From assembly GCA_025024175.1 (NCBI GenBank), contig QCXZ01000075.1:4402001-4466000 (forward strand): a stretch of DNA of 64,000 nt, in the 5' to 3' direction. The position numbers were made by a program, and so were the translations under genes. Shown here piece after piece: positions 2,400-51,394 of this stretch. Below the pieces are notes generated by a model, which did not search any database, had not been told where the DNA came from, and worked only from the letters and a program-made list of their open reading frames with translations. The number at the start of each line of letters is the position of its first letter. The stretch's first letter is position 1. The DNA comes from Rhyzopertha dominica. Taxonomy: Eukaryota; Arthropoda; Insecta; Coleoptera; Bostrichidae.

Positions 2400-2559
2400 G
2401 TGGTAGTTCGTTGAATTGCTATTTTAAAAGCTGGCGCTTGTGCCCTAATCCGTTGAAGACAGAAGTAACTTGCTTTCATCTCAACAATCACCAAAAGAGG
2501 AAACAGCTTCAAGTTATATCAAATAACATAATTCTTAAACATAACTTCTCGCCAAAATA
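2400..2559 (+). pseudogene. Jockey-type LINE ORF2, left piece
   Basis: The plus strand reads SLNCYFKSWRLCPNPLKTEV, then TCFHLNN, then ILKHNFSPK. This is the end of the reverse transcriptase domain of a jockey-like non-LTR element (compare WRLCPNPSKTEV.CFHLNN and KYLGVTLD). The copy is 5'-truncated at about 2400. It stops abruptly at 2559, where the giant inverted-repeat element begins. Its direct continuation is at 23460, in the matching codon phase. Confidence 0.8.
2554..2559. repeat. Target site duplication AAAATA (left copy)
   Basis: The six bases AAAATA directly before the insertion are repeated directly after it at 23454-23459. The host sequence is the lysine-tyrosine codon pair of the LINE. 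Confidence 0.85.
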
Positions 2560-2583
2560 AGTAGAGGTTTTTGGCCGGAGCTG

Positions 2584-3065
2584 AACCAATTTGCATATTA
2601 GCCTGTGTGAGCATGTGTAATTCGCTATCGCGATCAAAAAATTGGGGCAAAAATTTTTTTTCGATTTTTTTTTACATGTGAAATATGACTGGATTTGCAT
2701 GTTGATAAATAGTAACTTATTATTAAAAAAATGATTTGAATTTGTATGTTGATAAATAGTATCTTATTAGATGCATTATATTTTCCCCGGATTAATGATT
2801 CAATATTGCTGCTATATTGAAAATAATACTTTTCGAGTTGTTTATTAAATTTTAGGGTACTAGTTTGAGAGATCTGTATCACTCATTTGCATATTAGCCG
2901 GTAGGGGGCGTTTGAGGGCGCAAAATTACGCATTTGCATATTAGCCCAATCGAGCATGTGTGTAATTCGCGATCAAAAATTTTCTTTAATTTTTCGATTT
3001 TTTTTGCAGAATGTGATGGGATGAGAATATAACTGGGATTTGCATGTTCATATAGTAATTAGTGA
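2584..3065. repeat. Subterminal direct repeats, left arm
   Basis: Two diverged copies, 2584-2720 and 2930-3065, about 345 bp apart, share the order TTTGCATATTAGCC, GCATGTGTAATTCGC, GATCAAAAA, a T-tract around CGATTTTTT, and GGATTTGCATGTT. A further GCATATTAGCC is at 2888. Repeated subterminal motifs in transposons are often binding sites for the mobilising protein; that role here is inference. Confidence 0.7.
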
Positions 3066-3420
3066 ATTTATTAAGTGTCAATTATTTTTATTCGACTTTT
3101 TTGAATTTGGTATGATGGAATGAGATGTGAAACTGTGACTGACATTTTGTATTTTATAGCAGTATGTTTCTGACTGAGGCTTTTACGCCCTAGGGAGATG
3201 GGATAATATCAGCGAAGGTGGGTTTTGCTGATGTGTAATTGATATTAAATGTTTATTTACTATTATCACATATTGCTATTGTATATGTATGCATGGCGAT
3301 ATGACCAATGTACTCTCCTATATGTAAACCGTTGTTATGATGGTGGGGGTTGGTACCGCGGTCCACGCTCTATATATAGGCAACCCCCAGAACAGGGGTA
3401 GACGGCGATTTTTTTTACTA

Positions 3421-3492
3421 TGCCGAATGCTGGATTTGAACCGGGTACCTCCGGTATGACAATTCAGCACTTTACCGCTGGGCTAAACGCAA
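3421..3492 (-). repeat. tRNA-derived (SINE-like) segment, left arm
   Basis: On the minus strand there is an A box TAGCCCAGCGG and a B box GGTTCAAATCC at tRNA spacing, with GTC at the anticodon position and GCATTCGGCA at the 3' end. The acceptor stem does not pair and the anticodon and T stems are poor, so this is a tRNA relic or SINE head, not a working tRNA. A GC-rich body follows at 3340-3415. The mirror copy is at 22521-22592. Confidence 0.6.
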
Positions 3493-3725
3493 ACTTACCT
3501 GACGGCCGTTATTCTTGTCTATTTAAGAGTAGGGCCACTCATCAATTTATCATTTTTAAACTGAGATGTGATATTAGGTAAAACTTACCGCTAAGTCCGC
3601 TTAGGCAGCACATTTTGACAGTAAATGGTTAATAATTACCTATGCCCATGTTTTTCTATGGTTTTATACTATTTTTTTGTCATATTTCATACAATGGATT
3701 TTCGTTGTGGCCAGCTGGAGGGTTT

Positions 3726-4110
3726 CAATGATTATCAGTTATCTGGAATAAGAATAAACAAATTAATATTAAGAGTATTCATAGATTTGAACCGTGATTG
3801 TGTGGCAAAAACATCAAATAACGTTTACAGCACGGCTTAATTGAGCTAAATAATTGTCATTTCACAACCTAGGCTAATCCACAGCAGGTTTACGATTTCT
3901 TTAAAATGAACTAGATAAGAAATTAAAGCCACCAGCATGCAATGATTATCAGTTATCTGGAATGAGAATAAACAAAGTAATACTAAGAGTATTCCTAGAT
4001 TTGAACCGTGATTTTGTGGCAAAAACGTCAAATAACGGTTACAGCACGACTTAATTGAGCTAAATAACTGTCATTTCACAACCTAGGCTAAACCACAGCA
4101 GGTTCAGATA
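3726..4110. repeat. Tandem duplication, 214-bp period, left arm
   Basis: CAATGATTATCAGTTATCTGG begins one unit at 3726 and the next at 3940. Both units run through GATTTGAACCGTGATT to CACAACCTAGGCTAA and CCACAGCAGGTT with scattered substitutions. The mirror is at 21903-22287. Confidence 0.8.
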
Positions 4111-4136
4111 GCTAAGCAAAACGGTGAATATAAGTT

Positions 4137-5460
4137 TAAAATTACTAAACTAGCATAAATCTACGACTGTTAGTCAACTCTGTTTATATAAAAGAATGGA
4201 TTTCAAGTGATTGAAGTTATTTTAGAATAAATGAAATACTTGCTACTATGTCTATTGAGAGTCATAGAAGGAACAAGCTGAAGACCAAAACACACACGGT
4301 AAGAATGTGTTTAAGGCAGGTAAACTAATAAAAAACACTCTATACTTCGTTGTATATCGTGATTTTCCTTTTTAACTAGTTTATGCATGCTGATTGTAAT
4401 AAATAATGTTAAAATTGTCAGCTTTTTTTAACTAATTCTGTTCATCAATAAGCATATATTTCTTGTAATTGTAATAAAATTGAAATAATATAATTAATTG
4501 ACTTTTGTTTGTACTTTAATTAAATATAATTCGCATGTCAGTTATCAATCTTGTAGGTTGAGAAGTTGCTTGTTACCGTCATCTATCATAGCATACAGGA
4601 TATTTGATGTAATAAATAACAATCAGCTACATGCTACTAGACTAGCAAAAATCTATGATTTCCTAAAACCACCCTCGTACTCCATATGTCGTGAACGTAG
4701 TCAATTCTGTTTATATAAAAGAATGGATTTCAAGCGATTGAAGTAGAATTAGAATAAACGAAATTGTGTCTTCACATCATATGGAACGTTTTAAATATAT
4801 AAAAAAAATTGGCGAGTTTTTTCATTATTTTTGCACTAGATTGCTTAAATTATGCCACTACATGTTTTTTTTCTCTAAAATGAGCAATACTCGTACGCTT
4901 AACTTGGCAAAAATACTTGCTACTGTGTATGTTGATAATCATAAATGGAGCAAGCTGATGAAGCACGGTAAAAATGCGTTTAAGACAACTAGACTACTGA
5001 AAAATATACTGTGTCGTACTTCGTTGTATATCGTGAATTCCCCTTTTTATTAGTTTCTGCGTGTTAATTATATTAAATAATGTTAAAATTGCCTGCTTTT
5101 TCGTCTAAAAGCATATATTTCTTGCGATTGAAGTAATGTACTTAAATGAGTATTGTTTGGACTTTAATAAATATAACTAGCATTTATTATATGTTGAGAA
5201 GTTGCTTATTACCGTCATCTATCATAGCATTTAGGGTAATTGACAAATAGAAAAATGACGCGATTTCCTTGATTATCTTCCTAACACTTGCTTATTTAAA
5301 TTATGACGCAGCATACTTTTTGTCTAATTAGCAGTACATATGTCTCTAAATAATAACAAGAAGCAAATTGAGAGAGCAGAAGCAAACAGTCGATCAGGAA
5401 CGATGAAAATGTGTTTAAAGGAACTAAACTACTCGAAAATCTACTTCATGATGTGTTATG
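4137..5460. repeat. Diverged tandem repeat, about 640-bp period, left arm
   Basis: Ordered blocks recur: TTTATATAAAAGAATGGATTT at about 4183 and 4711; GTTGAGAAGTTGCTTRTTACC at about 4556 and 5193; and a segment with TACTTCGTTGTATATCGTGA at about 4346 and 5018. A third partial copy starts near 5400. Spacings of about 530 to 670 bp show much indel decay. The mirror is at 20553-21876. Confidence 0.7.
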
Positions 5461-5660
5461 AATAGTCTCATCAACTAGCAACCGGTATTGACATTGACTA
5501 GTGTTTGATTTTAATCAATTCTCTTTCTGTATTTTATGCTCATATAGCATATAGAGCGCTTGACATGGATAAAAATATAACGAGATTACTTTGCCATTTT
5601 CCCTTACTTATATTGTTACATGTTTCTCTCTATAATATGCTATACTTATACAGGTCTTAA

Positions 5661-6110
5661 TGATGGTGGGAAAAATACATATTGCTATCATATTCATGTG
5701 ATAATCTACAACAAACAAATTGATAACCCGAAACATTTGCTGAATGAGCATTCTAAATGGTTTCGAACAAGATTATGACCATAACCAGCTGAATCGGTTG
5801 GTTGAAAGGCCGTAATCGAAGACACGGCGAGCTGTAGGGGTGAAATGGTAGCAGATAATCGCTATAAGGCATTTGCTTTCTAAAGTAATGATTGTGGGAA
5901 AAATACATATTGCTATTACATTTATGTGATAAAAATGTTTGATAATCTACAACAAACAAATTAAAAGCAGAAACGTTTGCCGAATAAGCATACCGATTGG
6001 TTTCGAACAAGATTATGACCATAATCAGCAGAATAGGTTGGTTGAAAGCCCGTAATCGAATACACAGCCAGCTCTAGGGGTGAAATGGTAGCAGATAATC
6101 GTTATAATAC
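5661..6110. repeat. Tandem duplication, about 235-bp period, left arm
   Basis: Two units share GTGGGAAAAATACATATTGC, then AATCTACAACAAACAAATT, then TGGTTTCGAACAAGATTATG, then GGGGTGAAATGGTAGCAGAT. The units diverge moderately. The mirror is at 19903-20352. Confidence 0.8.
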
Positions 6111-9025
6111 TCCTGTTTAGTACATAGTACACCTCAAATTCCTCCTATTACAGCTGGAAAAAGGTTGAAATGGTAAAGTTGTGGAGAAGTTAAGACCACT
6201 TGCGTTTTTGTTTGTTGAACATGGACTTGCATTGCTTATTCATGTAGGTTTCCGAATGCGTTATCTGATCAAAACAGTCTTATGGAAATTATGCTAATGA
6301 TATAGATACTTAGAGGAAGTGAGTCGAACAAATTATAGGTAACGAGAAATATAAGGGATATTTGTCGAAAAGTATTCAAATCCGTTTATATATTATCATT
6401 AAACTTATATTTCCAATATCGAAAGTCTCCTAGTTAGCTCACATTCCAAGGGCGCATTAAACTTATTGTTTTAGACTGACATAAAAGCCTTAAATGTAGT
6501 ATGTTGTTTGAACACAATTTTCTGCTATTGCTATTCAAGAACTTTAATTTGGTGAATTAACCTCCGATTAGGCAAAATAATAACTGTAATATATATTTCA
6601 TAAGTATTATTCACACTTTAAAGTCGAATGAAATAAGAAATTAATATTTTATTTTCTTGAAACTACCGAACTGGCCAATATCGTGCCCGTTTAGTTTGTC
6701 ATTCATTTCTACATAGTGGTAGCGGGAGCTACGGGGAAGCTAAAGTATGTACGCACTGATATTTAAATATGCATACACACGAGCTTTACACAGGAGAAAC
6801 ATAAGACAACAAGTAGTTTTTTTGTTCTTTAGATAACTTTTCATGCATTTTCTCCCTAAAACTTGCACATTTATGCATTATTTGTAAACCCAATGTATCC
6901 GTCGCTGAACCCCATTGTAATAGTTAAAGCTAAAAAACGCTGTCAGTTACCTATTGTATGTCCAACAGCATTAATACTATTATGGTTCTAATATAGAATA
7001 AACAAAAATCAAATAACTACAATAATATATCGCAGATAATACTTTGATTTTTAGTGCAGATATTAATCAAATTATCACGTCTTTTTACCAATTAATGGAG
7101 ATCACTTTAAAAATGTCTACATATTTATTACAGAAATGAACTTCTGACAAAAAAAGGGCACCATTAGCTATTTCAAAATCGATGAGCATGTATTACATGA
7201 TCGAATGATGTTTTGTTCTTTAAAAGCCTCCAAATTTATGAAACAGTAAATACATAAATCGACAAATTAGTGTCAAATAAGAAAAGGGATCAAGTACACC
7301 TATATAAAATACCAAGAATTTGAACAAAAGACGTAATTTTGCGAAAAAAATCATTGAAAATTGACAGGTAATTTTGTAAATTTATAGAAAATCGCATATT
7401 GTATGTGAAATGCGTAAATCGACAAAATTAAACCAATAAAAAGAGTGTAAATATGAGTAAAACTTGTTATTATGGTTAGTATATCCTACAGTTATTCAAT
7501 TTCAGGATAACGTGTTTTATAAATATAAAAATGTTTACTATGGAAAGCATGCCTAAGGAAATTTTCCCCTTCACAGCCTATCGTACAGTATATCGCAGAG
7601 GAACCCATCTCACATTAGCCAAAATCAAACATAAATTACTTCTCCTTGTTACCGCCGTATACTACACATTGCCCTTAATGCACCAGAGAAGGCTGTCTTG
7701 TTATAATGTAATGATTTTAAATAAATCAAGATTAACGAAAATTCAGAAGCATAAATAAGTGAAATGTTCTTTTGACGAAGTTTATTGTCAAGATAAGTAC
7801 ACAAGAGCGTTGCCATTCTAATTACATGGACATGAAAGAGGCGATTTGTTATTACCCTTAACCCATAACAGCAGATCTTAGACAAAAACAACTTGTCTCG
7901 AGCTAAAAAGGTTAGCTTTAATATATTCCGGAAAGATCAGTACCTGCATGACTACTTACATTAGGTGTAAATGTGAACAATTCATTTAAAAATGTGGGCA
8001 AAGTCGATCTGAACCTTTATGTTCTTGCTACGCAACGGTATACTTTTTCAATGACCTAGAAGCGTTATTGACATTTTTTTTGCAAATTAAGGCATTAAGG
8101 ATTCCCATCTGAGACCTAGATTGACATAGCGACTTGCACTTTATTAACCTTTAACTGCAGGTACAGGTGCATTTCATTCACTTAGGAAACTTCAGTACTG
8201 CCTCTGATTGGTTATAATGTCAGATATCATTGGTTCCCTCAGTAGGAATGTATTAATCTTAATTAATTTTAGGTTAAATATTTATTTATTCAGTGTGTAA
8301 CATTTTAAAGCCAGTCTTGCTGATGGATATTGTGCATATTATGAAGTGTACGACGCACCTGAAAGATAAGAACAATCATGAATTAGGTAGTTAATTATCC
8401 GAAAACTCTAAAATTCTTAATAACCATGTAGTTTGTATAAGGTTATAACACTGCGTTCAGCACTTACCAGACTTTTTATTGGATAATATGGAATAGTTGC
8501 TAAAGAACTCAACTGCATCATATTATGACAATACTTTTTCTTTAAGGAATCTTAAAATAACTTAAACCATTTATTTTAAAGAGGAACTTGAGACGCTGCA
8601 AGATTAATATCACAACTCACCCCCGTTGTAGGTTTGTCCCATTTTAACTTATATCCACGACGTGAAATTTGTTATCTAAGCGTTCCCTACAGGATAATCT
8701 TGTTAACAAAATAGTTTGCTAGTAATAGCATACGCCATCCTGAAATCATGTAAGACATCTTAACATAAGTACACCAATTTATACGCTATTGTTAACTTGT
8801 AGGTAGTATTTTGCAATCATAACTTAGTATTAATACCCTGTGAAGCAAAACCGTTGCAAAAAAAATATTGATATATGTCATTATTATGCTAATTTACTGT
8901 TTCATTTTAGAATTTGTACTTATCAATGAGAAAATGTATACCAATGTTCATGCTATTGAGCACTTGTAATTATCTACATATAATCTTTTTTTGGCATTAA
9001 CTTAGGAAATTATAAAAGCACAAAT

Positions 9026-9031
9026 TTATTA

Positions 9032-9068
<37 letters not shown>

Positions 9069-9075
9069 TATTATT
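9026..9075. repeat. (ATT)n microsatellite
   Basis: A run of TTA/ATT trinucleotides with one TATA interruption. It is mirrored at about 12753-12802 and, with a different length, at about 16935-16983. Confidence 0.9.
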
Positions 9076-10867
9076 CTGCCATTGCAAATATTTAAAAATA
9101 GGTACTTACCACAAAAGAAGTGTAGTTTATATTCAACAAATTACGTGTTCCTCCAACAACTACACCAAAATAATAATACTTTACTACGGTTAAGCAGGTT
9201 AAAAAGGAATAGCTCATCGAAAATTTAGACTTAATATGAAAAATATTCATAATTGTTATGAGATTGGAGTAATTTTATAGAAAGAGAACCACAACCCTCC
9301 GATATTGGAGTTTAAATTCCACGAGGCATGGCGAATACGTGAAGAATACGTTATGTAGGCTTCTTATGACTGTCAAAGCTTTACCTACCTACTTTACCTA
9401 CAAGTATGAACATGATCACCATCGTTTATAGCCAACTAGTCAAATATATTGAGATATCTCACACTTCCCTTGATAGGTAAATTTTATTATATTACATAAT
9501 ATTCCTATTACGTCATTAAAACGATGTTAAATTATTTTAGAACTGCTTTGAGATTTGATGTTTTTCTTTCTATAAAGCATGACAGCAACACATAGAATGA
9601 TTTAATACACATAGAAAGTGAAATATTTGGAAGAATTTTTTTGTAGTAGCCATTATTCTGATACCTATCCACATCTTAACCCACACCCCCTCATGCACAG
9701 AACTGGAGCTGTACGAATCGAAAATTTTGATACGAAACCGTTTTTTTATACGTGGAACGCATTTTTTTAATAAAACCTGTTTTAGAAGATACATAGTAGG
9801 CAGCGCATACCTTTACAAAACTTCTTTTATACTTCTGGTTAGATTTAAGCAAGCCGCATTTGATGTGATCCCCAGGGAAGCAAGCATGCATCAGCAATTT
9901 GTATAAAGATGATGATCGATTTAAATATATATTTTTTATGTGAAAACACAGAGAGGAAAGTTGAATTTTACCTTGAAATAATACATAAAAGTATTGCTTA
10001 AATGTCATAGCCTGCTACATAAATATGTGGGATTTACTGAGTAAACTACTGTACAGTACTGCAGTGCGTGAATCCCAAGATCTATTTCCTCAATATTTCC
10101 AATCATCAATGCATATTTCTTTATATGATTTTTTCTGTTCTCCTTTTTTTCTGTGATGTCAGTATACGCCCTAAAAAGTATGATAATCGCACTTTTCTTG
10201 CAAATTGAATCGATTTATACACATATCGAACATTTAACTGGAATTTATACCATACTGAAATATTTTTATAATCAACAAATTGTTTATATTCGAAGGTAGT
10301 TTACATGCTCATACCATTTCTCTTTAGCTTCAAATACAGTTTTTTTAATACGTATAGCATAAGAACATAGAAGTTGCAGTGTATCATCCATCATTCATTA
10401 AACTTGTAACGAAAATCGATGCTGTAGCCGTACTAAATGAAATAAGATCAGTTTTCGAAAGAGAAAGAAACCATTCGAGATTAGTCAAAAACAGTGCCAC
10501 TTTTATTGCAGTCTTCAACTATGAGATACTCAGCGAAAATATGAAATGCACATTTGTTTAGGTATATACAACACAGCTTCTGGGTAATTAAGAATTTTCT
10601 TAATATCAAAGCAATTTGTTTGAAAAACACGGTTAATATCGTAAGGAGTTAAATTACTATCTATCACACTATTTCTTTTTTCAAATCTTGAGATACTTAT
10701 TCATTTATATAACTACATCTATAGCTAATGACAACTTTTTAAACTAAATCACTTCCAATGAACAACAACTGTGAGAAAACAAAGTAAGGCCTAGCTGGCT
10801 GCCGATTATTTTAACATTCTGTATATACACAGTGATCTAGTTAAACTCCGAGATTGAGAAAGTTTAT

Positions 10868-10960
10868 GGATTTTATATGATTTGAAAAAAAAGCCAGGTC
10901 TAAATATATGTGAAACAAATAAGGTATATGCAAGGCATAGAATTTCCTTCAACAAAATCA
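10868..10960. other. Single-copy spacer between the palindrome arms
   Basis: These 93 bases join the arms and are not self-complementary as a whole. The arm ends read GAGATTGAGAAAGTTTAT at 10850-10867 and ATAAACTTTCTCAATCTC at 10961-10978. No gene or signal is recognised. The second contig (15096) starts inside a copy of this spacer. Confidence 0.85.
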
Positions 10961-12759
10961 ATAAACTTTCTCAATCTCGGAGTTTAACTAGATCACTGTG
11001 TATATACAGAATGTTAAAATAATCGGCAGCCAGCTAGGCCTTACTTTGTTTTCTCACAGTTGTTGTTCATTGGAAGTGATTTAGTTTAAAAAGTTGTCAT
11101 TAGCTATAGATGTAGTTATATAAATGAATAAGTATCTCAAGATTTGAAAAAAGAAATAGTGTGATAGATAGTAATTTAACTCCTTACGATATTAACCGTG
11201 TTTTTCAAACAAATTGCTTTGATATTAAGAAAATTCTTAATTACCCAGAAGCTGTGTTGTATATACCTAAACAAATGTGCATTTCATATTTTCGCTGAGT
11301 ATCTCATAGTTGAAGACTGCAATAAAAGTGGCACTGTTTTTGACTAATCTCGAATGGTTTCTTTCTCTTTCGAAAACTGATCTTATTTCATTTAGTACGG
11401 CTACAGCATCGATTTTCGTTACAAGTTTAATGAATGATGGATGATACACTGCAACTTCTATGTTCTTATGCTATACGTATTAAAAAAACTGTATTTGAAG
11501 CTAAAGAGAAATGGTATGAGCATGTAAACTACCTTCGAATATAAACAATTTGTTGATTATAAAAATATTTCAGTATGGTATAAATTCCAGTTAAATGTTC
11601 GATATGTGTATAAATCGATTCAATTTGCAAGAAAAGTGCGATTATCATACTTTTTAGGGCGTATACTGACATCACAGAAAAAAAGGAGAACAGAAAAAAT
11701 CATATAAAGAAATATGCATTGATGATTGGAAATATTGAGGAAATAGATCTTGGGATTCACGCACTGCAGTACTGTACAGTAGTTTACTCAGTAAATCCCA
11801 CATATTTATGTAGCAGGCTATGACATTTAAGCAATACTTTTATGTATTATTTCAAGGTAAAATTCAACTTTCCTCTCTGTGTTTTCACATAAAAAATATA
11901 TATTTAAATCGATCATCATCTTTATACAAATTGCTGATGCATGCTTGCTTCCCTGGGGATCACATCAAATGCGGCTTGCTTAAATCTAACCAGAAGTATA
12001 AAAGAAGTTTTGTAAAGGTATGCGCTGCCTACTATGTATCTTCTAAAACAGGTTTTATTAAAAAAATGCGTTCCACGTATAAAAAAACGGTTTCGTATCA
12101 AAATTTTCGATTCGTACAGCTCCAGTTCTGTGCATGAGGGGGTGTGGGTTAAGATGTGGATAGGTATCAGAATAATGGCTACTACAAAAAAATTCTTCCA
12201 AATATTTCACTTTCTATGTGTATTAAATCATTCTATGTGTTGCTGTCATGCTTTATAGAAAGAAAAACATCAAATCTCAAAGCAGTTCTAAAATAATTTA
12301 ACATCGTTTTAATGACGTAATAGGAATATTATGTAATATAATAAAATTTACCTATCAAGGGAAGTGTGAGATATCTCAATATATTTGACTAGTTGGCTAT
12401 AAACGATGGTGATCATGTTCATACTTGTAGGTAAAGTAGGTAGGTAAAGCTTTGACAGTCATAAGAAGCCTACATAACGTATTCTTCACGTATTCGCCAT
12501 GCCTCGTGGAATTTAAACTCCAATATCGGAGGGTTGTGGTTCTCTTTCTATAAAATTACTCCAATCTCATAACAATTATGAATATTTTTCATATTAAGTC
12601 TAAATTTTCGATGAGCTATTCCTTTTTAACCTGCTTAACCGTAGTAAAGTATTATTATTTTGGTGTAGTTGTTGGAGGAACACGTAATTTGTTGAATATA
12701 AACTACACTTCTTTTGTGGTAAGTACCTATTTTTAAATATTTGCAATGGCAGAATAATA

Positions 12760-12796
<37 letters not shown>

Positions 12797-14995
12797 TAAT
12801 AAATTTGTGCTTTTATAATTTCCTAAGTTAATGCCAAAAAAAGATTATATGTAGATAATTACAAGTGCTCAATAGCATGAACATTGGTATACATTTTCTC
12901 ATTGATAAGTACAAATTCTAAAATGAAACAGTAAATTAGCATAATAATGACATATATCAATATTTTTTTTGCAACGGTTTTGCTTCACAGGGTATTAATA
13001 CTAAGTTATGATTGCAAAATACTACCTACAAGTTAACAATAGCGTATAAATTGGTGTACTTATGTTAAGATGTCTTACATGATTTCAGGATGGCGTATGC
13101 TATTACTAGCAAACTATTTTGTTAACAAGATTATCCTGTAGGGAACGCTTAGATAACAAATTTCACGTCGTGGATATAAGTTAAAATGGGACAAACCTAC
13201 AACGGGGGTGAGTTGTGATATTAATCTTGCAGCGTCTCAAGTTCCTCTTTAAAATAAATGGTTTAAGTTATTTTAAGATTCCTTAAAGAAAAAGTATTGT
13301 CATAATATGATGCAGTTGAGTTCTTTAGCAACTATTCCATATTATCCAATAAAAAGTCTGGTAAGTGCTGAACGCAGTGTTATAACCTTATACAAACTAC
13401 ATGGTTATTAAGAATTTTAGAGTTTTCGGATAATTAACTACCTAATTCATGATTGTTCTTATCTTTCAGGTGCGTCGTACACTTCATAATATGCACAATA
13501 TCCATCAGCAAGACTGGCTTTAAAATGTTACACACTGAATAAATAAATATTTAACCTAAAATTAATTAAGATTAATACATTCCTACTGAGGGAACCAATG
13601 ATATCTGACATTATAACCAATCAGAGGCAGTACTGAAGTTTCCTAAGTGAATGAAATGCACCTGTACCTGCAGTTAAAGGTTAATAAAGTGCAAGTCGCT
13701 ATGTCAATCTAGGTCTCAGATGGGAATCCTTAATGCCTTAATTTGCAAAAAAAATGTCAATAACGCTTCTAGGTCATTGAAAAAGTATACCGTTGCGTAG
13801 CAAGAACATAAAGGTTCAGATCGACTTTGCCCACATTTTTAAATGAATTGTTCACATTTACACCTAATGTAAGTAGTCATGCAGGTACTGATCTTTCCGG
13901 AATATATTAAAGCTAACCTTTTTAGCTCGAGACAAGTTGTTTTTGTCTAAGATCTGCTGTTATGGGTTAAGGGTAATAACAAATCGCCTCTTTTCATGTC
14001 CATGTAATTAGAATGGCAACGCTCTTGTGTACTTATCTTGACAATAAACTTCGTCAAAAGAACATTTCACTTATTTTATGCTTCTGATTTTCGTTAATCT
14101 TGATTTATTTAAAATCATTACATTATAACAAGACAGCCTTCTCTGGTGCATTAAGGGCAATGTGTAGTATAACGGCGGTAACAAGGAGAAGTAATTTATG
14201 TTTGATTTTGGCTAATGTGAGATGGGTTCCTCTGCGATATACTGGTACGATAGGCTGTGAAGGGGAAAAATTTCCTTAGGCATGCTTTCCATCAGTAAAC
14301 ATTTTTATATTTATAAAACACGTTATCCTGAAATTGGAATAACTGTAGGATATACTAACCATAATAACAAGTTTTACTCATATTTACACTCTTTTTATTG
14401 GTTTTAATTTTGTTCGATTTACGCATTTCACATACAATATGCGATTTTCTATAAAATTTACAAAATTACCTGTCAATTTTCAATGATTTTTTTTCGGCAA
14501 AATACTTCTTTTGTTCAAATTCTTAGTATTTTATATAGGTGTACTTGATCCCTTTTCTTATTTGACACTAATTTGTCGATTTATGTATTTACTGTTTCAT
14601 AAATTTGGAGGCTTTTAAAGAACAAAACATCATTCGATCATGTAATACATGCTCATCGATTTTGAAATAGCTAATGGTGCCCTTTTTTTGTCAGAAGTTC
14701 ATTTCTGTAATAAATATGTAGACATTTTTAAAGTGATCTCCATTAATTGGTAAAAAGACGTTGATAATTGATTAATATCTGCACTAAAAATCAAAGTATT
14801 ATCTGCGATATATTATTGTAGTTATTTGATTTTTGTTATTCTATATTAGAACCATAATAGTATTAATGCTGTTGGACATACAATAGGTAACTGACAGCGT
14901 TTTTTAGCTTTAACTATTACAATGGGGTTCAGTGACGGATACATTGGGTTTACAAATAATGCATAAATGTGCAAGTTTTAGGAGAAAATGCATGA
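10961..14995 (-). repeat. Right arm, inner copy (contig 1 end)
   Basis: Reverse complement of 6841-10867. Single-base indels accumulate only toward its end, for example around 14080-14290, where the same positions in the left arm and the outer copy agree with each other. It is probably the same genomic DNA as 15096-19172. Confidence 0.85.
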
Positions 14996-15095
14996 NNNNN
15001 NNNNNNNNNNNNNNNNNNNNNNNNNNNNNNNNNNNNNNNNNNNNNNNNNNNNNNNNNNNNNNNNNNNNNNNNNNNNNNNNNNNNNNNNNNNNNNN
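14996..15095. other. 100-N scaffold gap
   Basis: Exactly 100 n of unknown true size. The sequence on its right (from 15096) restarts at the base equivalent to 10912, so the two contigs overlap by about 4.08 kb. Confidence 0.95.
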
Positions 15096-18000
15096 GAAAC
15101 AAATAAGGTATATGCAAGGCATAGAATTTCCTTCAACAAAATCAATAAACTTTCTCAATCTCGGAGTTTAACTAGATCACTGTGTATATACAGAATGTTA
15201 AAATAATCGGCAGCCAGCAGGCCTTACTTTGTTTTCTCACAGTTGTTGTTCATTGGAAGTGATTTAGTTTAAAAAAGTTGTCATTAGCTATAGATGTAGT
15301 TATATAAATGAATAAGTATCTCAAGATTTGAAAAAAGAAATAGTGTGATAGATAGTAATTTAACTCCTTACGATATTAACCGTGTTTTTCAAACAAATTG
15401 CTTTGATATTAAGAAAATTCTTAATTACCCAGAAGCTGTGTTCGTATATACCTAAACAAATGTGCATTTCATATTTTCGCTGAGTATCTCATAGTTGAAG
15501 ACTGCAATAAAAGTGGCACTGTTTTTGACTAATCTCGAATGGTTTCTTTCTCTTTCGAAAACTGATCTTATTTCATTTAGTACGGCTACAGCATCGATTT
15601 TCGTTACAAGTTTAATGAATGATGGATGATACACTGCAACTTCTATGTTCTTATGCTATACGTATTAAAAAAACTGTATTTGAAGCTAAAGAGAAATGGT
15701 ATGAGCATGTAAACTACCTTCGAATATAAACAAATTTGTTGATTATAAAATATTTCAGTATGGTATAAATTCCAGTTAAATGTTCGATATGTGTATAAAT
15801 CGATTCAATTTGCAAGAAAAGTGCGATTATCATACTTTTTAGGGCGTATACTGACATCACAGAAAAAAAGGAGAACAGAAAAAATCATATAAAGAAATAT
15901 GCATTGATGATTGGAAATATTGAGGAAATAGATCTTGGATTCATCGCACTCACGCACTGCAGTACTGTACAGTAGTTTACTCAGTAAATCCCACATATTT
16001 ATGTAGCAGGCTATGACATTTAAGCAATACTTTTATGTATTATTTCAAGGTAAAATTCAACTTTCCTCTCTGTGTTTTCACATAAAAAATATATATTTAA
16101 ATCGATCATCATCTTTATACAAATTGCTGATGCATGCTTGCTTCCCTGGGGATCACATCAAATGCGGCTTGCTTAAATCTAACCAGAAGTATAAAAGAAG
16201 TTTTGTAAAGGTATGCGCTGCCTACTATGTATCTTCTAAAACAGGTTTTATTAAAAATGCGTTCCACGTAAAAAAAACGGTTTCGTATCAAAATTTTCGA
16301 TTCGTACAGCTCCAGTTCTGTGCATGAGGGGGTGTGGGTTAAGATGTGGATAGGTATCAGAATAATGGCTACTACAAAAAATTCTTCCAATATTTCACTT
16401 TCTATGTGTTATCATTCTATGTGTTGCTGTCATGCTTTATAGAAGAAAAACATCAAATCTCAAAGCAGTTCTAAAATAATTTAACATCGTTTTAATGACG
16501 TAATAGGAATATTATGTAATATAATAAAATTTACCTATCAAGGGAAGTGTGAGATATCTCAATATATTTGACTAGTTGGCTATAAACGATGGTGATCATG
16601 TTCATACTTGTAGGTAAAGTAGGTAGGTAAGCTTTGACAGTCATAAGAAGCCTACATAACGTATTCTTCACGTATTCGCCATGCCTCGTGGAATTTAAAC
16701 TCCAATATCGGAGGGGTTGTGGTTCTCTTTCTATAAAATTACTCCAATCTCATAACAATTATGAATATTTTTCATATTAAGTCTAAATTTTCGATGAGCT
16801 ATTCCTTTTTAACCTGCTTAACCGTAGTAAAGTATTATTATTTGGTGTAGTTGTTGGAGGAACACGTAATTTGTTGAATATAAACTACACTTCTTTTGTG
16901 GTAAGTACCTATTTTTAAATATTTGCAATGGCAGAATAATAATATATAATAATAATATAATAATAATAATAATAATATAATAAATTTGTGCTTTTATAAT
17001 TTCCTAAGTTAATGCCAAAAAAAGATTATATGTAGATAATTACAAGTGCTCAATAGCATGAACATTGGTATACATTTTCTCATTGATAAGTACAAATTCT
17101 AAAAATGAAACCAGTAAATTAGCATAATAATGACATATATCAATATTTTTTTTTGCAACGGTTTTGCTTCACAGGTATTAATACTAAGTTATGATTGCAA
17201 AATACTACCTACAAGTTAACAATAGCGTATAAATTGTGTACTTATGTTTAAGATGTCTTACATGATTTCAGGATGGCGTATGCTATTACTAGCAAACTAT
17301 TTTGATTAACAAGATTATCCTGTAGGGAACGCTTAGATAACAAATTTCACGTACGTGGATATAAGTTAAATGGGACAAACCTACAAACGGGGGTGAGTTG
17401 TGATATTAATCTTGCAGCGTCTCAAGTTCCTCTTTAAAAATAAATGGTTAAGTTATTTTAAGATTCCTTAAAGAAAAAGTATTGTCATAATATGATGCAG
17501 TTGAGTTCTTTAGCAACTATTCCATATTATCCAATAAAAAGTCTGGTAAGTGCTGAACGCAGTGTTATAACCTTATACAAACTACATGGTTATTAAGAAT
17601 TTTAGAGTTTTCGGATAATTAACTACCTAATTCATGATTGTTCTTATCTTTCAGGTGCGTCGTACACTTCATAATATGCACAATATCCATCAGCAAGACT
17701 GGCTTTAAAATGTTACACACTGAATAAATAAATATTTAACCTAAAATTAATTAAGATTAATACATTCCTACTGAGGGAACCAATGATATCTGACATTATA
17801 ACCAATCAGAGGCAGTACTGAAGTTTCCTAAGTGAATGAAATGCACCTGTACCTGCAGTTAAAGGTTAATAAAGTGCAAGTCGCTATGTCAATCTAGGTC
17901 TCAGATGGGAATCCTTAATGCCTTTAATTTGCAAAAAAAATGTCAATAACGCTTCTAGGTCATTGAAAAAGTATACCGTTGCGTAGCAAGAACATAAAGG

Positions 18001-21000
18001 TTCAGATCGACTTTGCCCACATTTTTAAATGAATTGTTCACATTTACACCTAATGTAAGTAGTCATGCAGGTACTGATCTTTCCGGAATATATTAAAGCT
18101 AACCTTTTTAGCTCGAGACAAGTTGTTTTTGTCTAAGATCTGCTGTTATGGGTTAAGGGTAATAACAAATCGCCTCTTTCATGTCCATGTAATTAGAATG
18201 GCAACGCTCTTGTGTACTTATCTTGACAATAAACTTCGTCAAAGAACATTTCACTTATTTATGCTTCTGAATTTTCGTTAATCTTGATTTATTTAAAATC
18301 ATTACATTATAACAAGACAGCCTTCTCTGGTGCATTAAGGGCAATGTGTAGTATACGGCGGTAACAAGGAGAAGTAATTTATGTTTGATTTTGGCTAATG
18401 TGAGATGGGTTCCTCTGCGATATACTGTACGATAGGCTGTGAAGGGGAAAATTTCCTTAGGCATGCTTTCCATAGTAAACATTTTTATATTTATAAAACA
18501 CGTTATCCTGAAATTGAATAACTGTAGGATATACTAACCATAATAACAAGTTTTACTCATATTTACACTCTTTTTATTGGTTTAATTTTGTCGATTTACG
18601 CATTTCACATACAATATGCGATTTTCTATAAATTTACAAAATTACCTGTCAATTTTCAATGATTTTTTTCGCAAAATTACGTCTTTTGTTCAAATTCTTG
18701 GTATTTTATATAGGTGTACTTGATCCCTTTTCTTATTTGACACTAATTTGTCGATTTATGTATTTACTGTTTCATAAATTTGGAGGCTTTTAAAGAACAA
18801 AACATCATTCGATCATGTAATACATGCTCATCGATTTTGAAATAGCTAATGGTGCCCTTTTTTTGTCAGAAGTTCATTTCTGTAATAAATATGTAGACAT
18901 TTTTAAAGTGATCTCCATTAATTGGTAAAAAGACGTGATAATTTGATTAATATCTGCACTAAAAATCAAAGTATTATCTGCGATATATTATTGTAGTTAT
19001 TTGATTTTTGTTTATTCTATATTAGAACCATAATAGTATTAATGCTGTTGGACATACAATAGGTAACTGACAGCGTTTTTTAGCTTTAACTATTACAATG
19101 GGGTTCAGCGACGGATACATTGGGTTTACAAATAATGCATAAATGTGCAAGTTTTAGGGAGAAAATGCATGAAAAGTTATCTAAAGAACAAAAAAACTAC
19201 TTGTTGTCTTATGTTTCTCCTGTGTAAAGCTCGTGTGTATGCATATTTAAATATCAGTGCGTACATACTTTAGCTTCCCCGTAGCTCCCGCTACCACTAT
19301 GTAGAAATGAATGACAAACTAAACGGGCACGATATTGGCCAGTTCGGTAGTTTCAAGAAAATAAAATATTAATTTCTTATTTCATTCGACTTTAAAGTGT
19401 GAATAATACTTATGAAATATATATTACAGTTATTATTTTGCCTAATCGGAGGTTAATTCACCAAATTAAAGTTCTTGAATAGCAATAGCAGAAAATTGTG
19501 TTCAAACAACATACTACATTTAAGGCTTTTATGTCAGTCTAAAACAATAAGTTTAATGCGCCCTTGGAATGTGAGCTAACTAGGAGACTTTCGATATTGG
19601 AAATATAAGTTTAATGATAATATATAAACGGATTTGAATACTTTTCGACAAATATCCCTTATATTTCTCGTTACCTATAATTTGTTCGACTCACTTCCTC
19701 TAAGTATCTATATCATTAGCATAATTTCCATAAGACTGTTTTGATCAGATAACGCATTCGGAAACCTACATGAATAAGCAATGCAAGTCCATGTTCAACA
19801 AACAAAAACGCAAGTGGTCTTAACTTCTCCACAACTTTACCATTTCAACCTTTTTCCAGCTGTAATAGGAGGAATTTGAGGTGTACTATGTACTAAACAG
19901 GAGTATTATAACGATTATCTGCTACCATTTCACCCCTAGAGCTGGCTGTGTATTCGATTACGGGCTTTCAACCAACCTATTCTGCTGATTATGGTCATAA
20001 TCTTGTTCGAAACCAATCGGTATGCTTATTCGGCAAACGTTTCTGCTTTTAATTTGTTTGTTGTAGATTATCAAACATTTTTATCACATAAATGTAATAG
20101 CAATATGTATTTTTCCCACAATCATTACTTTAGAAAGCAAATGCCTTATAGCGATTATCTGCTACCATTTCACCCCTACAGCTCGCCGTGTCTTCGATTA
20201 CGGCCTTTCAACCAACCGATTCAGCTGGTTATGGTCATAATCTTGTTCGAAACCATTTAGAATGCTCATTCAGCAAATGTTTCGGGTTATCAATTTGTTT
20301 GTTGTAGATTATCACATGAATATGATAGCAATATGTATTTTTCCCACCATCATTAAGACCTGTATAAGTATAGCATATTATAGAGAGAAACATGTAACAA
20401 TATAAGTAAGGGAAAATGGCAAAGTAATCTCGTTATATTTTTATCCATGTCAAGCGCTCTATATGCTATATGAGCATAAAATACAGAAAGAGAATTGATT
20501 AAAATCAAACACTAGTCAATGTCAATACCGGTTGCTAGTTGATGAGACTATTCATAACACATCATGAAGTAGATTTTCGAGTAGTTTAGTTCCTTTAAAC
20601 ACATTTTCATCGTTCCTGATCGACTGTTTGCTTCTGCTCTCTCAATTTGCTTCTTGTTATTATTTAGAGACATATGTACTGCTAATTAGACAAAAAGTAT
20701 GCTGCGTCATAATTTAAATAAGCAAGTGTTAGGAAGATAATCAAGGAAATCGCGTCATTTTTCTATTTGTCAATTACCCTAAATGCTATGATAGATGACG
20801 GTAATAAGCAACTTCTCAACATATAATAAATGCTAGTTATATTTATTAAAGTCCAAACAATACTCATTTAAGTACATTACTTCAATCGCAAGAAATATAT
20901 GCTTTTAGACGAAAAAGCAGGCAATTTTAACATTATTTAATATAATTAACACGCAGAAACTAATAAAAAGGGGAATTCACGATATACAACGAAGTACGAC

Positions 21001-22520
21001 ACAGTATATTTTTCAGTAGTCTAGTTGTCTTAAACGCATTTTTACCGTGCTTCATCAGCTTGCTCCATTTATGATTATCAACATACACAGTAGCAAGTAT
21101 TTTTGCCAAGTTAAGCGTACGAGTATTGCTCATTTTAGAGAAAAAAAACATGTAGTGGCATAATTTAAGCAATCTAGTGCAAAAATAATGAAAAAACTCG
21201 CCAATTTTTTTTATATATTTAAAACGTTCCATATGATGTGAAGACACAATTTCGTTTATTCTAATTCTACTTCAATCGCTTGAAATCCATTCTTTTATAT
21301 AAACAGAATTGACTACGTTCACGACATATGGAGTACGAGGGTGGTTTTAGGAAATCATAGATTTTTGCTAGTCTAGTAGCATGTAGCTGATTGTTATTTA
21401 TTACATCAAATATCCTGTATGCTATGATAGATGACGGTAACAAGCAACTTCTCAACCTACAAGATTGATAACTGACATGCGAATTATATTTAATTAAAGT
21501 ACAAACAAAAGTCAATTAATTATATTATTTCAATTTTATTACAATTACAAGAAATATATGCTTATTGATGAACAGAATTAGTTAAAAAAAGCTGACAATT
21601 TTAACATTATTTATTACAATCAGCATGCATAAACTAGTTAAAAAGGAAAATCACGATATACAACGAAGTATAGAGTGTTTTTTATTAGTTTACCTGCCTT
21701 AAACACATTCTTACCGTGTGTGTTTTGGTCTTCAGCTTGTTCCTTCTATGACTCTCAATAGACATAGTAGCAAGTATTTCATTTATTCTAAAATAACTTC
21801 AATCACTTGAAATCCATTCTTTTATATAAACAGAGTTGACTAACAGTCGTAGATTTATGCTAGTTTAGTAATTTTAAACTTATATTCACCGTTTTGCTTA
21901 GCTATCTGAACCTGCTGTGGTTTAGCCTAGGTTGTGAAATGACAGTTATTTAGCTCAATTAAGTCGTGCTGTAACCGTTATTTGACGTTTTTGCCACAAA
22001 ATCACGGTTCAAATCTAGGAATACTCTTAGTATTACTTTGTTTATTCTCATTCCAGATAACTGATAATCATTGCATGCTGGTGGCTTTAATTTCTTATCT
22101 AGTTCATTTTAAAGAAATCGTAAACCTGCTGTGGATTAGCCTAGGTTGTGAAATGACAATTATTTAGCTCAATTAAGCCGTGCTGTAAACGTTATTTGAT
22201 GTTTTTGCCACACAATCACGGTTCAAATCTATGAATACTCTTAATATTAATTTGTTTATTCTTATTCCAGATAACTGATAATCATTGAAACCCTCCAGCT
22301 GGCCACAACGAAAATCCATTGTATGAAATATGACAAAAAAATAGTATAAAACCATAGAAAAACATGGGCATAGGTAATTATTAACCATTTACTGTCAAAA
22401 TGTGCTGCCTAAGCGGACTTAGCGGTAAGTTTTACCTAATATCACATCTCAGTTTAAAAATGATAAATTGATGAGTGGCCCTACTCTTAAATAGACAAGA
22501 ATAACGGCCGTCAGGTAAGT

Positions 22521-22592
22521 TTGCGTTTAGCCCAGCGGTAAAGTGCTGAATTGTCATACCGGAGGTACCCGGTTCAAATCCAGCATTCGGCA
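22521..22592 (+). repeat. tRNA-derived (SINE-like) segment, right arm
   Basis: Mirror of 3421-3492. The A box is at 22528-22538 and the B box at 22571-22581. It points outward, as in the left arm. The acceptor stem is unpaired, so it is not a functional tRNA. Confidence 0.6.
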
Positions 22593-22947
22593 TAGTAAAA
22601 AAAATCGCCGTCTACCCCTGTTCTGGGGGTTGCCTATATATAGAGCGTGGACCGCGGTACCAACCCCCACCATCATAACAACGGTTTACATATAGGAGAG
22701 TACATTGGTCATATCGCCATGCATACATATACAATAGCAATATGTGATAATAGTAAATAAACATTTAATATCAATTACACATCAGCAAAACCCACCTTCG
22801 CTGATATTATCCCATCTCCCTAGGGCGTAAAAGCCTCAGTCAGAAACATACTGCTATAAAATACAAAATGTCAGTCACAGTTTCACATCTCATTCCATCA
22901 TACCAAATTCAAAAAAGTCGAATAAAAATAATTGACACTTAATAAAT

Positions 22948-23429
22948 TCACTAATTACTATATGAACATGCAAATCCCAGTTATATTCTCATCCCATCAC
23001 ATTCTGCAAAAAAAATCGAAAAATTAAAGAAAATTTTTGATCGCGAATTACACACATGCTCGATTGGGCTAATATGCAAATGCGTAATTTTGCGCCCTCA
23101 AACGCCCCCTACCGGCTAATATGCAAATGAGTGATACAGATCTCTCAAACTAGTACCCTAAAATTTAATAAACAACTCGAAAAGTATTATTTTCAATATA
23201 GCAGCAATATTGAATCATTAATCCGGGGAAAATATAATGCATCTAATAAGATACTATTTATCAACATACAAATTCAAATCATTTTTTTAATAATAAGTTA
23301 CTATTTATCAACATGCAAATCCAGTCATATTTCACATGTAAAAAAAAATCGAAAAAAAATTTTTGCCCCAATTTTTTGATCGCGATAGCGAATTACACAT
23401 GCTCACACAGGCTAATATGCAAATTGGTT
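22948..23429. repeat. Subterminal direct repeats, right arm
   Basis: Mirror of the two subterminal copies at 2584-3065. Confidence 0.7.
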
Positions 23430-23453
23430 CAGCTCCGGCCAAAAACCTCTACT

Positions 23454-23459
23454 AAAATA
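23454..23459. repeat. Target site duplication AAAATA (right copy)
   Basis: This follows the terminal ...CCTCTACT directly and matches 2554-2559. Confidence 0.85.
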
Positions 23460-24285
23460 CCATGGACTGACCCTAGATACGTCTCTAACGTACAAGAAAC
23501 ATCTAGAAAACGTCAGTAAAAAATTACAGACTAGAAATAACATTCTGCATCAGCTTGCTGGTACAAGTTGGGGTGCAAATGCAAATGTACTCCGTACTTC
23601 TGCAACTGCCTTGCTTTATAGCACTGCTGAGTACTGCTGTCATGTTTGGAAAAACAGTCATCACACAGGAAAAATTGACACTCAGTTAAATACTGCAATG
23701 CGACTAATCACTGGAACAATTAAGTCAACTCCATTACCTTGGCTTCCGATTCTTTCAAACATTGCTCCTCCGGAGATTCACAGACAGTTTGCTACATATA
23801 AAGCTTGACAAAAATATCAATCAGCTCCTAATGAGTTTCTGATTTCCCGAGATCTGAAAGAGCTACCTACAAGTCGGCTAACTTCTAGAAAACCTCTGTG
23901 GACAGAAGATTTCCTTCGTGCTCCGTATACCATTGAAGATGGATGGTGTTCTGTTTGGCAACTTAAGAAACGTGATATTTTCAATCAGCAGCTTATAGAC
24001 GATCCTACGGAAGAGGTAGCAGGAACTGACCTCCCAAGAAGGNCTTGGGTCACTCTGAATCGCCTTCGCACTGGTCATGGCAAATGCAAGTTTTTTCTTA
24101 ATAAATGGGATTCATCTATCAACCCTTCTTGTGAATGAGGAGATCCCTTCCAAACAATTGGACATATGGTCAACAGATGCCCCCGTACTGGCTTCAGCCA
24201 ATAGAGATCTGATTGGAGTTTTCTGCGGTTTTCTTCAATACTCTGTCCAGAATAAATACATACATGTATGTATCTATTATGGATA
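23460..24285 (+). pseudogene. Jockey-type LINE ORF2, right piece
   Basis: Continuation of the LINE at 2400-2559. After the split tyrosine codon it reads HGLTLD.SLTYKKHLENVSKKLQ, then TRNNILHQLAGTSWGANA, STAEYCCHVW, LNTAMRLITGTIKSTPLPWL, and near the end RLRTGHGKCKFFLNKW. This is the region after the RT palm/thumb of jockey-like elements. TGA at 23806 and TGA at 24136, plus a later TAG, break the frame, so the copy was dead or has decayed. The 3' end has a short ATACATACATGTATGTAT repeat near 24255. Confidence 0.85.
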
Positions 24286-30440: not shown

Positions 30441-30461
30441 GTTGTGTTGTGTTTAAACACT

Positions 30462-31154
30462 GGACAGTTAGGACACAAGGTTTACAGAAAACCAACACAC
30501 ACAGATAGATATTTACATGTCACACCTCATCACCCTCCCTCTCAAAAGAATAGTCTTATAAGGACGTTATTTGTTAGAGCACAAAGGATCTCAGGCGAAA
30601 GTTCTTTACAAAAACAAATATATATTCTTAAATCAGCGCTAGTGAGAAATGATGAAAGCAATAAGAATATTTGGTCAGTTTTTAATAAAAGTGCTCATTC
30701 AAATCAAGTACATTCTCAGCCAGGACAAATGAAATTGAAGTTGAGTTTGCCTTATGTACAAGGCCTTTTGGAAAAATTAAAGAGGATGCTTAGAAGACAC
30801 GATATTTTAGTTGTTGATAGTACATATAATAATTTAGATAAAATTTTAAGTTCTACTAAATATAAAGTACATTTAGAGAGTGAAGGTGTTTACAAAATTA
30901 CTTGTTCTTGCGGCAAGTGGTACATAGGTCAAACTAAAAGAAAAGTAGGTACGCGTTTGAAAGAACACGTACGTGCTACTAGGATGCAACATATAGTTAA
31001 ATCTTCCGTAGATGAACACTCATATTTGACTAAACACATGATTGACTTTCATAAAACAAAAACTTTACATAGAGAAAAATATTATCACAAACGTCTAATA
31101 AAAGAAGCCATAGAAATTTGTAGGAATACTAATAAGGGATTGTGGAAATTATGA
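30462..31154 (+). pseudogene. 5'-truncated Penelope-like element, GIY-YIG part
   Basis: The frame opens with LGHKVYRKPTHTDRYLH, the segment after the RT active-site region of Penelope-like elements, and the true RT core is missing upstream. It continues through LPYVQGLLEKLKRMLRRHDI and then a GIY-YIG endonuclease domain: EGVYKITCSC, WYIGQTKRKVGTRLKEHVR, and KEAIEIC near the end. About 230 residues are uninterrupted, ending at TGA 31152. In full elements this endonuclease nicks target DNA for reverse transcription. Loss of RT makes this copy non-autonomous. The break at about 30460 fits 5' truncation on insertion. It is more AT-rich than the 54-kb copy, so it belongs to a different subfamily. 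Confidence 0.85.
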
Positions 31155-42545: not shown

Positions 42546-42629
42546 ATTGATTGCGGTAGATTACAGAATCCAATTGCCTTTACACTCAGTTTTTTCGTTC
42601 GTTTTCCTATAAGCATCTAGCATCTACAT

Positions 42630-48600: not shown

Positions 48601-49575
48601 GTCGGGAAATTAATTTTTCGTAAATTGAAAGTTCTACTCTAGGTCACTTTTCAGACGAACCGTTGCAGCTAGAGAAAAACTGACACCACTCCGAAATGCA
48701 GCAGGTCCACATTAGTAAATGAACATAAAATTAGCGTAATCGGAGACCATGAAATTTCGAGGTGAAAAAACAACAAAGGGGTTAGCCTTTGCTCTATTGC
48801 CGTTTTCGGTGAAAATTATTTTTGGCTCAAAATCGGCATACTGATGTATTTTGAGCTGCTGATTCCAAAAATGCATTCAGAAATGAGCTAGGACGTCGGG
48901 AAATTAATTTTTCGTAAATTGAAAGTTCTACTCTAGGTCACTTTTCAGACGAACCGTTGCAGCTAGAGAAAAACTGACACCACTCCGAAATGCAGCAGGT
49001 CCACATTAGTAAATGAACATAAAATTAGCGTAATCGGAGACCATGAAATTTCGAGGTGAAAAAACAACAAAGGGGTTAGCCTTTGCTCTTTTGCCGTTTT
49101 CGGTGAAAATTATTTTTGGCTCAAATTCGGCATACTGATGTATTTTGAGCTGCTGATTCCAAAAATGCATTCAGAAATGAGCTAGGACGTCGGGAAATTA
49201 ATTTTTCGTAAATTGAAAGTTCTACTCTAGGTCACTTTTCAGACGAACCGTTGCAGCTAGAGAAAAACTGACACCACTCCGAAATGCAGCAGGTCCACAT
49301 TAGTAAATGAACATAAAATTAGCGTAATCGGAGACCATGAAATTTCGAGGTGAAAAAACAACAAAGGGGTTAGCCTTTGCTCTTTTGCCGTTTTCGGTGA
49401 AAATTATTTTTGGCTCAAAATCGGCATACTGATGTATTTTGAGCTGCTGATTCCAAAAATGCATTCAGAAATGAGCTAGGACGTCGGGAAATTAATTTTT
49501 CGTAAATTGAAAGTTCTACTCTAGGTCACTTTTCAGACGAACCGTTGCAGCTAGAGAAAAACTGACACCACTCCA
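42630..49575. repeat. Satellite array, about 294-bp monomer, about 23 copies
   Basis: Monomers begin with CGGGAAATTAATTTTTCG at 42630 and 42924, and at every following repeat to 49485. The spacing is 294 bp in the clean right part (48306 to 49482) and 297-299 bp where the unit carries GTTAGTTAGCC or GTTGTTAGCC instead of GTTAGCC. Units differ by a few per cent. Linked variants (GAGATG with GTTGTTAGCC; GCATGCAG after GTTAGTTAGCC) recur in the same order at 43.2-43.8 and 44.6-45.0 kb, which hints at multi-monomer duplication. The short frames in it are satellite, not genes. The last unit is cut after CCACTCC at 49575. Confidence 0.97.
45500..45599. other. 100-N gap inside the satellite
   Basis: Exactly 100 n of unknown size. 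Monomers from 45600 to about 47530 carry many single-base indels absent elsewhere, consistent with a poorly covered contig end, so the copy number is not reliable. Confidence 0.95.
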
Positions 49576-49624
49576 AAATTTATACCAAAATTCAACATTT
49601 TTGACGTCAATGACTTTATTACAG

Positions 49625-51254: not shown

Positions 51255-51394
51255 CCCGGTTTAACTAGGAACGTGGATAGGTGTGTTCGTTAATGTCGGG
51301 GTTGATCGAACCTCACGGATCCTTCTCGATAACCTTACTGCTGTGAGTGAGTGAAAAATCTGTTGCAACGACCATTAAGACAAAAAATTTTGAT

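Follow-up and report, generated by a model that had tools for sequence, protein, structure and literature searches.

A palindromic element in the window

The window analysed here is a 64,000-nucleotide stretch of the Rhyzopertha dominica genome (contig QCXZ01000075.1, positions 4,402,001 to 4,466,000; C75:4402001-4466000 in our contig numbering). It contains a giant palindrome with AGTAG...CTACT ends, inserted in a repeat that resembles a long interspersed nuclear element (LINE). This palindrome belongs to a dispersed family whose ends are shared with elements bearing matches to the protein-primed DNA polymerase B (pPolB), and it is very probably a non-autonomous element derived from Polinton/Maverick elements. 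The locus is organized as follows.

2410-2553, plus strand: invaded LINE-like repeat, left piece
2554-2559: left target-site duplication, AAAATA, present as a single copy in the uninterrupted relative L015
2560-10874, plus strand: left arm, 8,315 bp, without recognisable gene
2560-2602, plus strand: 43-nt terminal sequence AGTAG...ATTTGCATATTAGC, an end type common to pPolB-bearing elements
2560-2714, plus strand: terminal stretch (about 155 nt) of type A, which matches the left end of the pPolB-bearing C64 element at 94.9%
2589-3045, plus strand: five ATTTGCAT octamers (2589, 2693, 2885, 2932, 3038), possible origin factor sites
10875-10953: central spacer (loop), 79 nt
10954-14995, minus strand: probable duplicated contig end (inner right arm, second version)
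14996-15095: assembly gap, 100 N
15096-15137: part of the central spacer again, oriented as 10875-10953; start of the right-hand contig
15138-23453, minus strand: right arm, 99.46% identical to the left arm and inverted relative to it
23454-23459: right target-site duplication, AAAATA
23460-23859, plus strand: invaded LINE-like repeat, right piece

The two arms align over 8,336 columns with 99.46% identity (4 substitutions and 41 gap columns), and their outermost 5.2 kb show no differences between left and right. This alignment confirms the real palindrome with arms of about 8.3 kb described in the initial annotation. The span given there, 2560 to 23453, holds for the outer ends; the 20.9 kb between them, however, are not one continuous palindrome, as they include the gap and the segment preceding it. 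In that segment the inner right arm appears a second time, with 99.4% identity to the left arm and 98.4% identity to the right one. From these identities it is best read as a duplicated contig end, an artefact of overlapping contigs that would lie outside the true element in its present arrangement. The right-hand contig begins within the central spacer, in the same orientation as the spacer copy of the left-hand contig, which is what a single palindrome with a 79-nt loop predicts. The true element would thus measure about 16.7 kb (8,315 + 79 + about 8,315), in agreement with the corrected size proposed earlier.

When the flanks are fused with one AAAATA, they form a 99-codon open frame, which from its motifs we take to be the end of a LINE reverse transcriptase. 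A relative of this joined target lies in the flank of another copy of the palindrome (L015:498-981; 81% identity over 518 columns, with indels). It is continuous across the insertion point and contains AAAATA once, indicating that the window unit was inserted whole. The palindrome ends exactly at its AAAATA duplications and is a transposed unit, as initially proposed. The palindromes at window position 2560 and at C75:6901770 have each invaded a copy of the same LINE-like repeat, but not at the same point.

The arms encode nothing recognisable

The number and length of open frames in the arm are close to those of Markov-shuffled sequence: there are 18 stop-to-stop frames of at least 60 codons (shuffled mean, 14), and the longest has 107 amino acids (shuffled mean maximum, 100; 95th percentile, 133). 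A 3-periodicity of substitutions exceeded a chi-square of 5.99 in just 2 of 182 overlapping windows of the arm. A coding arm was rejected on these two grounds. None of seven arm frames passed the Pfam cut-off, Rfam gave no match in the arm up to an E value of 0.5, and comparison of the genome's own pPolB frames with the arm gave no match (best E, 1.9). The terminal 19-mer had no exact match among the viral contigs searched. We therefore treat the arm as non-coding, although small exons are conceivable, and the earlier statement that it encodes nothing recognisable stands. With no pPolB gene found in it, the palindrome is not an autonomous Polinton/Maverick.

A dispersed family of palindromes

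We searched the genome (479 Mb in 138 contigs) with two probes. The first 601 nt of the element gave at least 52 matches (40 of 139 candidates scored), including 19 inverted pairs; an inner-arm probe (8000-8700) gave at least 43 (40 of 83 candidates scored) and added five inverted pairs, at C53:22.14, C136:64.39, C136:65.38, C1:10.16, and C136:16.55 Mb. The family thus comprises at least 24 inverted-pair loci. All 19 palindromes read at both ends start with AGTAG and are flanked by a perfect 6-bp duplication (11/11 and 8/8), each duplication differing in sequence from the others. Nine copies besides that of the window could be compared arm to arm over long stretches; for the other nine, the ends, or the ends and short pieces, were read. 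For C3a and C137a, whose ends are 6.7 and 67 kb apart in the assembly, N gaps kept us from taking these spacings as lengths.

The gap and the duplicated contig end in the window might suggest an assembly artefact, in which one arm was duplicated through an inverted chimera or a fold-back read. In 8 of 10 further copies, too, the pieces read contain a 100-N gap. Yet all 19 copies are anchored at both ends in different host sequence, between two copies of the same 6-bp sequence, and the window's target has an uninterrupted relative. In addition, one copy, C136:81921093-81937932, runs for 16,840 bp from end to end with no N run and is palindromic across its centre. An artefact is thus extremely improbable, and the initial annotation was right to dismiss an assembly foldback. 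Other copies with 6-bp duplications, which it had named as a check on its reading, are provided by the remaining loci among these 19.

The ends are shared with pPolB-bearing elements

A search of the genome with the PF03175 (DNA_pol_B_2) profile at a cut-off of 25.8 bits yielded at least 64 matches (91 of 106 candidates scored) and none in 14 controls. Several of these matches sit in long open frames (1,144-1,301 codons), and no palindrome known to us contains any of the 64 listed. Separately, the terminal pattern AGTAG-N15-26-ATTTGCATATTAGC was found 56 times in the genome (29 + 27); the reversed control gave no hits. Two pairs of this pattern enclose PF03175 matches: C64:43056366-43074462 (18.1 kb; 35.1 bits) and C136:38130709-38147425 (16.7 kb; 42.2 bits), flanked by the 6-bp duplications ATTATA and GAGGCA, respectively. 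A relative with a protein-primed polymerase between the same ends, which the initial annotation had suggested looking for, is thus present at two loci, with partial PF03175 matches. At an unpaired end (C137:34041692), a partial match of 34.3 bits with one stop lies 18.5 kb downstream. The protease model PF00770 found no match in the same-ended elements, and none in the controls either, so that its silence is uninformative.

Over 157 columns, the left end of the C64 element and the window arm share 94.9% identity, and the right end of the C136 element reaches 95.0% identity to this arm over 140 columns; the remaining two ends of these elements show 79% and 84% identity. The 43-nt end of the C64 element is identical to those of the palindromes at C64:3897002 and C136:65372227. 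Beyond the ends, the two kinds of element appear to part. A probe inside the A end of the C64 element (L065:230-900; for end types see below) had at least 56 matches (40 of 54 candidates scored), and was listed on one side only at four end pairs (C64:43.06, C43:8.33-8.35, C136:38.13, and C64:58.92 Mb). None of the 56 listed matches lies inside a known palindrome, and none of the 43 listed inner-arm matches lies inside these four end pairs. The gene-bearing elements thus look asymmetric, and the palindromes seem to share the terminal stretch alone with them, as far as they were compared. On the gene side of L065 (C64:43056340-43057240), short GC-rich stretches have splice-like borders; the genes may therefore have introns.

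A second pPolB family comprises 11 loci at least 99.4% alike. All 11 end at AGTAGTTATACC..., with different host DNA outside (one end read), and this end begins with AGTAG in every copy. Its likeness to the palindrome end beyond AGTAG is weak: in five copies, 162, 5, 11, 19, and 374 of 500 shuffles reached the score, so that 3 of the 5 pass the 5% level before correction. The sequence AGTAGAGGG in the pPolB locus L041 was considered as an element end and rejected, since it is internal to the element.

The palindromes thus have 6-bp duplications and AGT-type termini in 19/19 cases, as well as ends in common with pPolB-bearing elements. These features support the Polinton/Maverick type proposed in the initial annotation and make the new foldback superfamily that it had also considered unnecessary. 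The palindromes could instead be foldback elements of a cut-and-paste superfamily (P/Galileo or Mutator-type foldback) without kinship to Polintons; like FB, Galileo, and Tetris, they consist of long inverted repeats with internal repetition and little sequence in between. Target duplications are 7-8 bp in P/Galileo and 9-10 bp in Mutator, however, and the palindromes have 6 bp in 19/19 copies, rather than 7-10 bp. Moreover, their ends and about 155 terminal nucleotides are common to elements that enclose a pPolB match. We consider a cut-and-paste origin very unlikely.

The arms could also have been retained because they yield long double-stranded RNA, or small RNAs, that silence Polintons or the host. 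Read-through of a gene-less inverted repeat of 8.3 kb would produce a perfect hairpin RNA, and a TATA-like stretch (CTCTATATATAGGC, window position 3368) lies about 0.8 kb into each arm. The palindromes nevertheless share only about 155 nt with the presumed helper, which is little for silencing, and we find this role improbable.

Both ends of a palindrome are of one type

The two ends of the C64 pPolB-bearing element diverge past nucleotide 44 and are 80% alike over 87 columns; we refer to the left end as A and the right end as B. By identity to these ends, the 19 palindromes comprise 8 A/A and 9 B/B copies, with 2 set aside.

A/A palindromes: win, C75b, C136a, C136b, C75c, C41a, C137a, C3a
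B/B palindromes: C64a, C3b, C137b, C137d, C136d, C136e, C136f, C137e, C137f
Set aside, with a shorter, different end: C41b (script label B/B, on 25-57 columns) and C136g (script label B/A, on 11 and 6 columns)

In contrast to the C64 gene-bearing element, with its two unlike ends, the 17 palindromes classed have the same end type at both ends. The first 24 nt occur in several versions, and the two ends match in 11/11 and 7/8 copies; the exception is C136g, whose two ends differ there by one substitution (one in 110 nt).

The five ATTTGCAT octamers lie on one strand, at most 490 nt from the end, a number equalled in the whole arm by 1 of 300 Markov shuffles. They resemble the Oct-1 site of adenovirus origins and are possible factor sites of a replication origin, which we offer as a lead only. 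An end-like motif with the octamer recurs within the arm (window 2853-2980; L056:690-801). The outer end of C136g looks like this inner motif, which would fit a gain or loss of about 300 nt at the ends.

Arms agree within copies and diverge between copies

In the nine long-compared copies besides that of the window, the two arms of one copy are 98.4-99.8% identical, with 2-36 substitutions in a main block of 4.4-9.0 kb. Between copies, arm identity falls as low as 89.3% of aligned columns, with some blocks under 80%. The 22 arms of 11 copies were also placed in one tree. There, each copy's arms are sisters for 7 of the 11 (for C3b with a fork support of 94/89 only), and the remaining 4 fall, as near-identical copies, into two quartets that the tree does not resolve; left and right arms are nowhere divided by a fork. 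The very recent insertion initially proposed may hold for the window copy, with its 4 arm substitutions, but not for the family, whose lineages are about 10% apart.

Some copies are mosaics. In C136b, 250-nt blocks between 7560 and 10560 are 98-100% identical to the window, and blocks between 5810 and 6560 are 87-91% identical; this pattern is present on both arms, which are 99.6% identical to each other. Over the outer 1.8 kb, the likeness between two deep lineages is about equal to that within one, which is not the case for the inner part. C137a and C3a have A ends on both arms, yet the tree places both among B/B copies. Exchange between copies evidently happens, judging from these alignments, and its result is then carried by both arms. 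The centre is rearranged in C136a, being built differently from that of the window.

Possible fold-back replication of a probable Polinton satellite

The best overall explanation, which we hold with good confidence, is that the palindromes are non-autonomous satellites of a Polinton/Maverick in the same genome whose symmetry may be renewed by fold-back replication. The replication mode of animal Polintons is inferred from their polymerase. In our model, a putative gene-bearing Polinton would supply the terminal protein and pPolB, and copying would start at the AGTAG ends. A displaced single strand with one end could snap back near the central loop and be copied into a hairpin; once opened and copied, this hairpin would yield an inverted dimer whose two ends are the same. 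Palindromes would arise and be renewed in this way, each holding two copies of one origin rather than one A and one B end, and the integrase of the putative helper would insert the linear product, producing the 6-bp duplication. A/A and B/B palindromes beside an A/B Polinton are the expected leftover of fold-back in a protein-primed linear genome. For the more specific claim that fold-back replication renews the symmetry of the arms, we see the balance as even.

Alternatively, the palindrome of a non-autonomous Polinton may have arisen once, its symmetry then being kept by chromosomal gene conversion from arm to arm, with replication contributing nothing. Long inverted repeats convert each other, and such conversion accounts for the identical arms, the mosaics on both arms, and the matching ends. 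Yet it would have to be complete over 8 kb in each copy, out to the terminal nucleotides (the match of the first 24 nt is given above), and none of the nine long-compared copies has half-converted arms, within the limits set by gaps and sequencing errors. We regard this scenario as possible but somewhat doubtful. The snap-back derivative suggested in the initial annotation is thus favoured, though not proven against conversion.

Several observations weigh against a satellite maintained by fold-back replication. Chromosomal gene conversion would also keep arms alike. In both same-ended elements, the pPolB matches are partial and score low (35.1 and 42.2 bits, with a cut-off of 25.8). The C136 element fits the A/B scheme imperfectly: its left end is intermediate (86% to A, 80% to B) and its right end is A. 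Finally, beyond about 155-235 nt, the arm is without similarity to the gene-bearing elements where compared.

The gap-free palindrome measures 16.8 kb, and the pPolB-bearing elements measure 16.7 and 18.1 kb as assembled. This near-equal length of palindrome and putative helper is what packaging might demand. More tentatively, the palindrome may be a satellite replicon, an 8-kb hairpin with one origin that doubles to a palindrome of helper length, travels with the helper, and integrates as a palindrome. It would then be a stable lineage that evolves through fold-back replication, and would document in the genome that Polintons replicate as free linear DNA primed by protein.

Relation to known elements

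Yeast pGKL-derived palindromic plasmids and the genomes of incomplete adenovirus particles are palindromic derivatives of protein-primed linear DNA. As in the elements described here, one end of a linear protein-primed genome is duplicated symmetrically; those derivatives are defective episome or virus molecules, whereas the R. dominica palindromes are integrated and form an evolving family with its own lineages. FB, Galileo, and Tetris likewise consist mostly of long, internally repetitive inverted repeats, but the duplication size and termini of the palindromes point to Polintons, and their arms reach about 8 kb.

According to PMC8097293, vertebrate Mavericks have 6-bp target duplications and ends of the form (AGT)2...(ACT)2 or (AG)3...(CT)3, and jumping back on end repeats has been discussed for them. 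Compared with these Mavericks, the palindromes agree in their 6-bp duplications, AGT-type ends (here AGTAG), size range, and pPolB relatives with the same ends; they differ in having no recognisable gene and, in place of short terminal repeats, two arms of 8 kb. Teratorn is also a giant virus-like element with long inverted repeats; unlike the palindromes, it is a fusion of piggyBac with a herpesvirus, has a unique region rich in genes, and targets TTAA, as described in PMC6431247 and PMC10175614. In the open-access papers searched, as distinct from subscription papers and Repbase reports, we found no mention of a non-autonomous or palindromic Polinton/Maverick. The novelty lies in a palindromic build that persists as a stable and evolving family.

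If our interpretation is correct, a gene-less family kept symmetrical by one-end copying would be a record of a Polinton replication intermediate. The family also hints at the existence of non-autonomous Polinton satellites about as long as Polintons themselves. The palindrome family further explains one class of assembly gaps.

Other features of the window

One frame in the window matches alpha-amylase (PF00128); it has 81 relatives, of which the few named insect ones are maltases (from the beetles Agrilus, Gonioctena, and Acanthoscelides, and from Blattella). One reverse-transcriptase frame (PF00078) and a related C-terminal frame are present at 54108-55268 and 30444-31154; from their motifs, they are presumably Penelope-like. 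A satellite-like tandem array with a period of 294 bp and about 23 copies extends over 42629-49579, with a 100-N gap (45500-45599) inside it. It is followed by a second palindrome of about 960 bp (49832-50792; 94%), which has 33-bp tandem repeats near its ends and a AAGTACTT-rich centre and is perhaps a foldback-type element. About three direct repeats of roughly 750 bp each, 86-87% alike, occupy 51394-53656.

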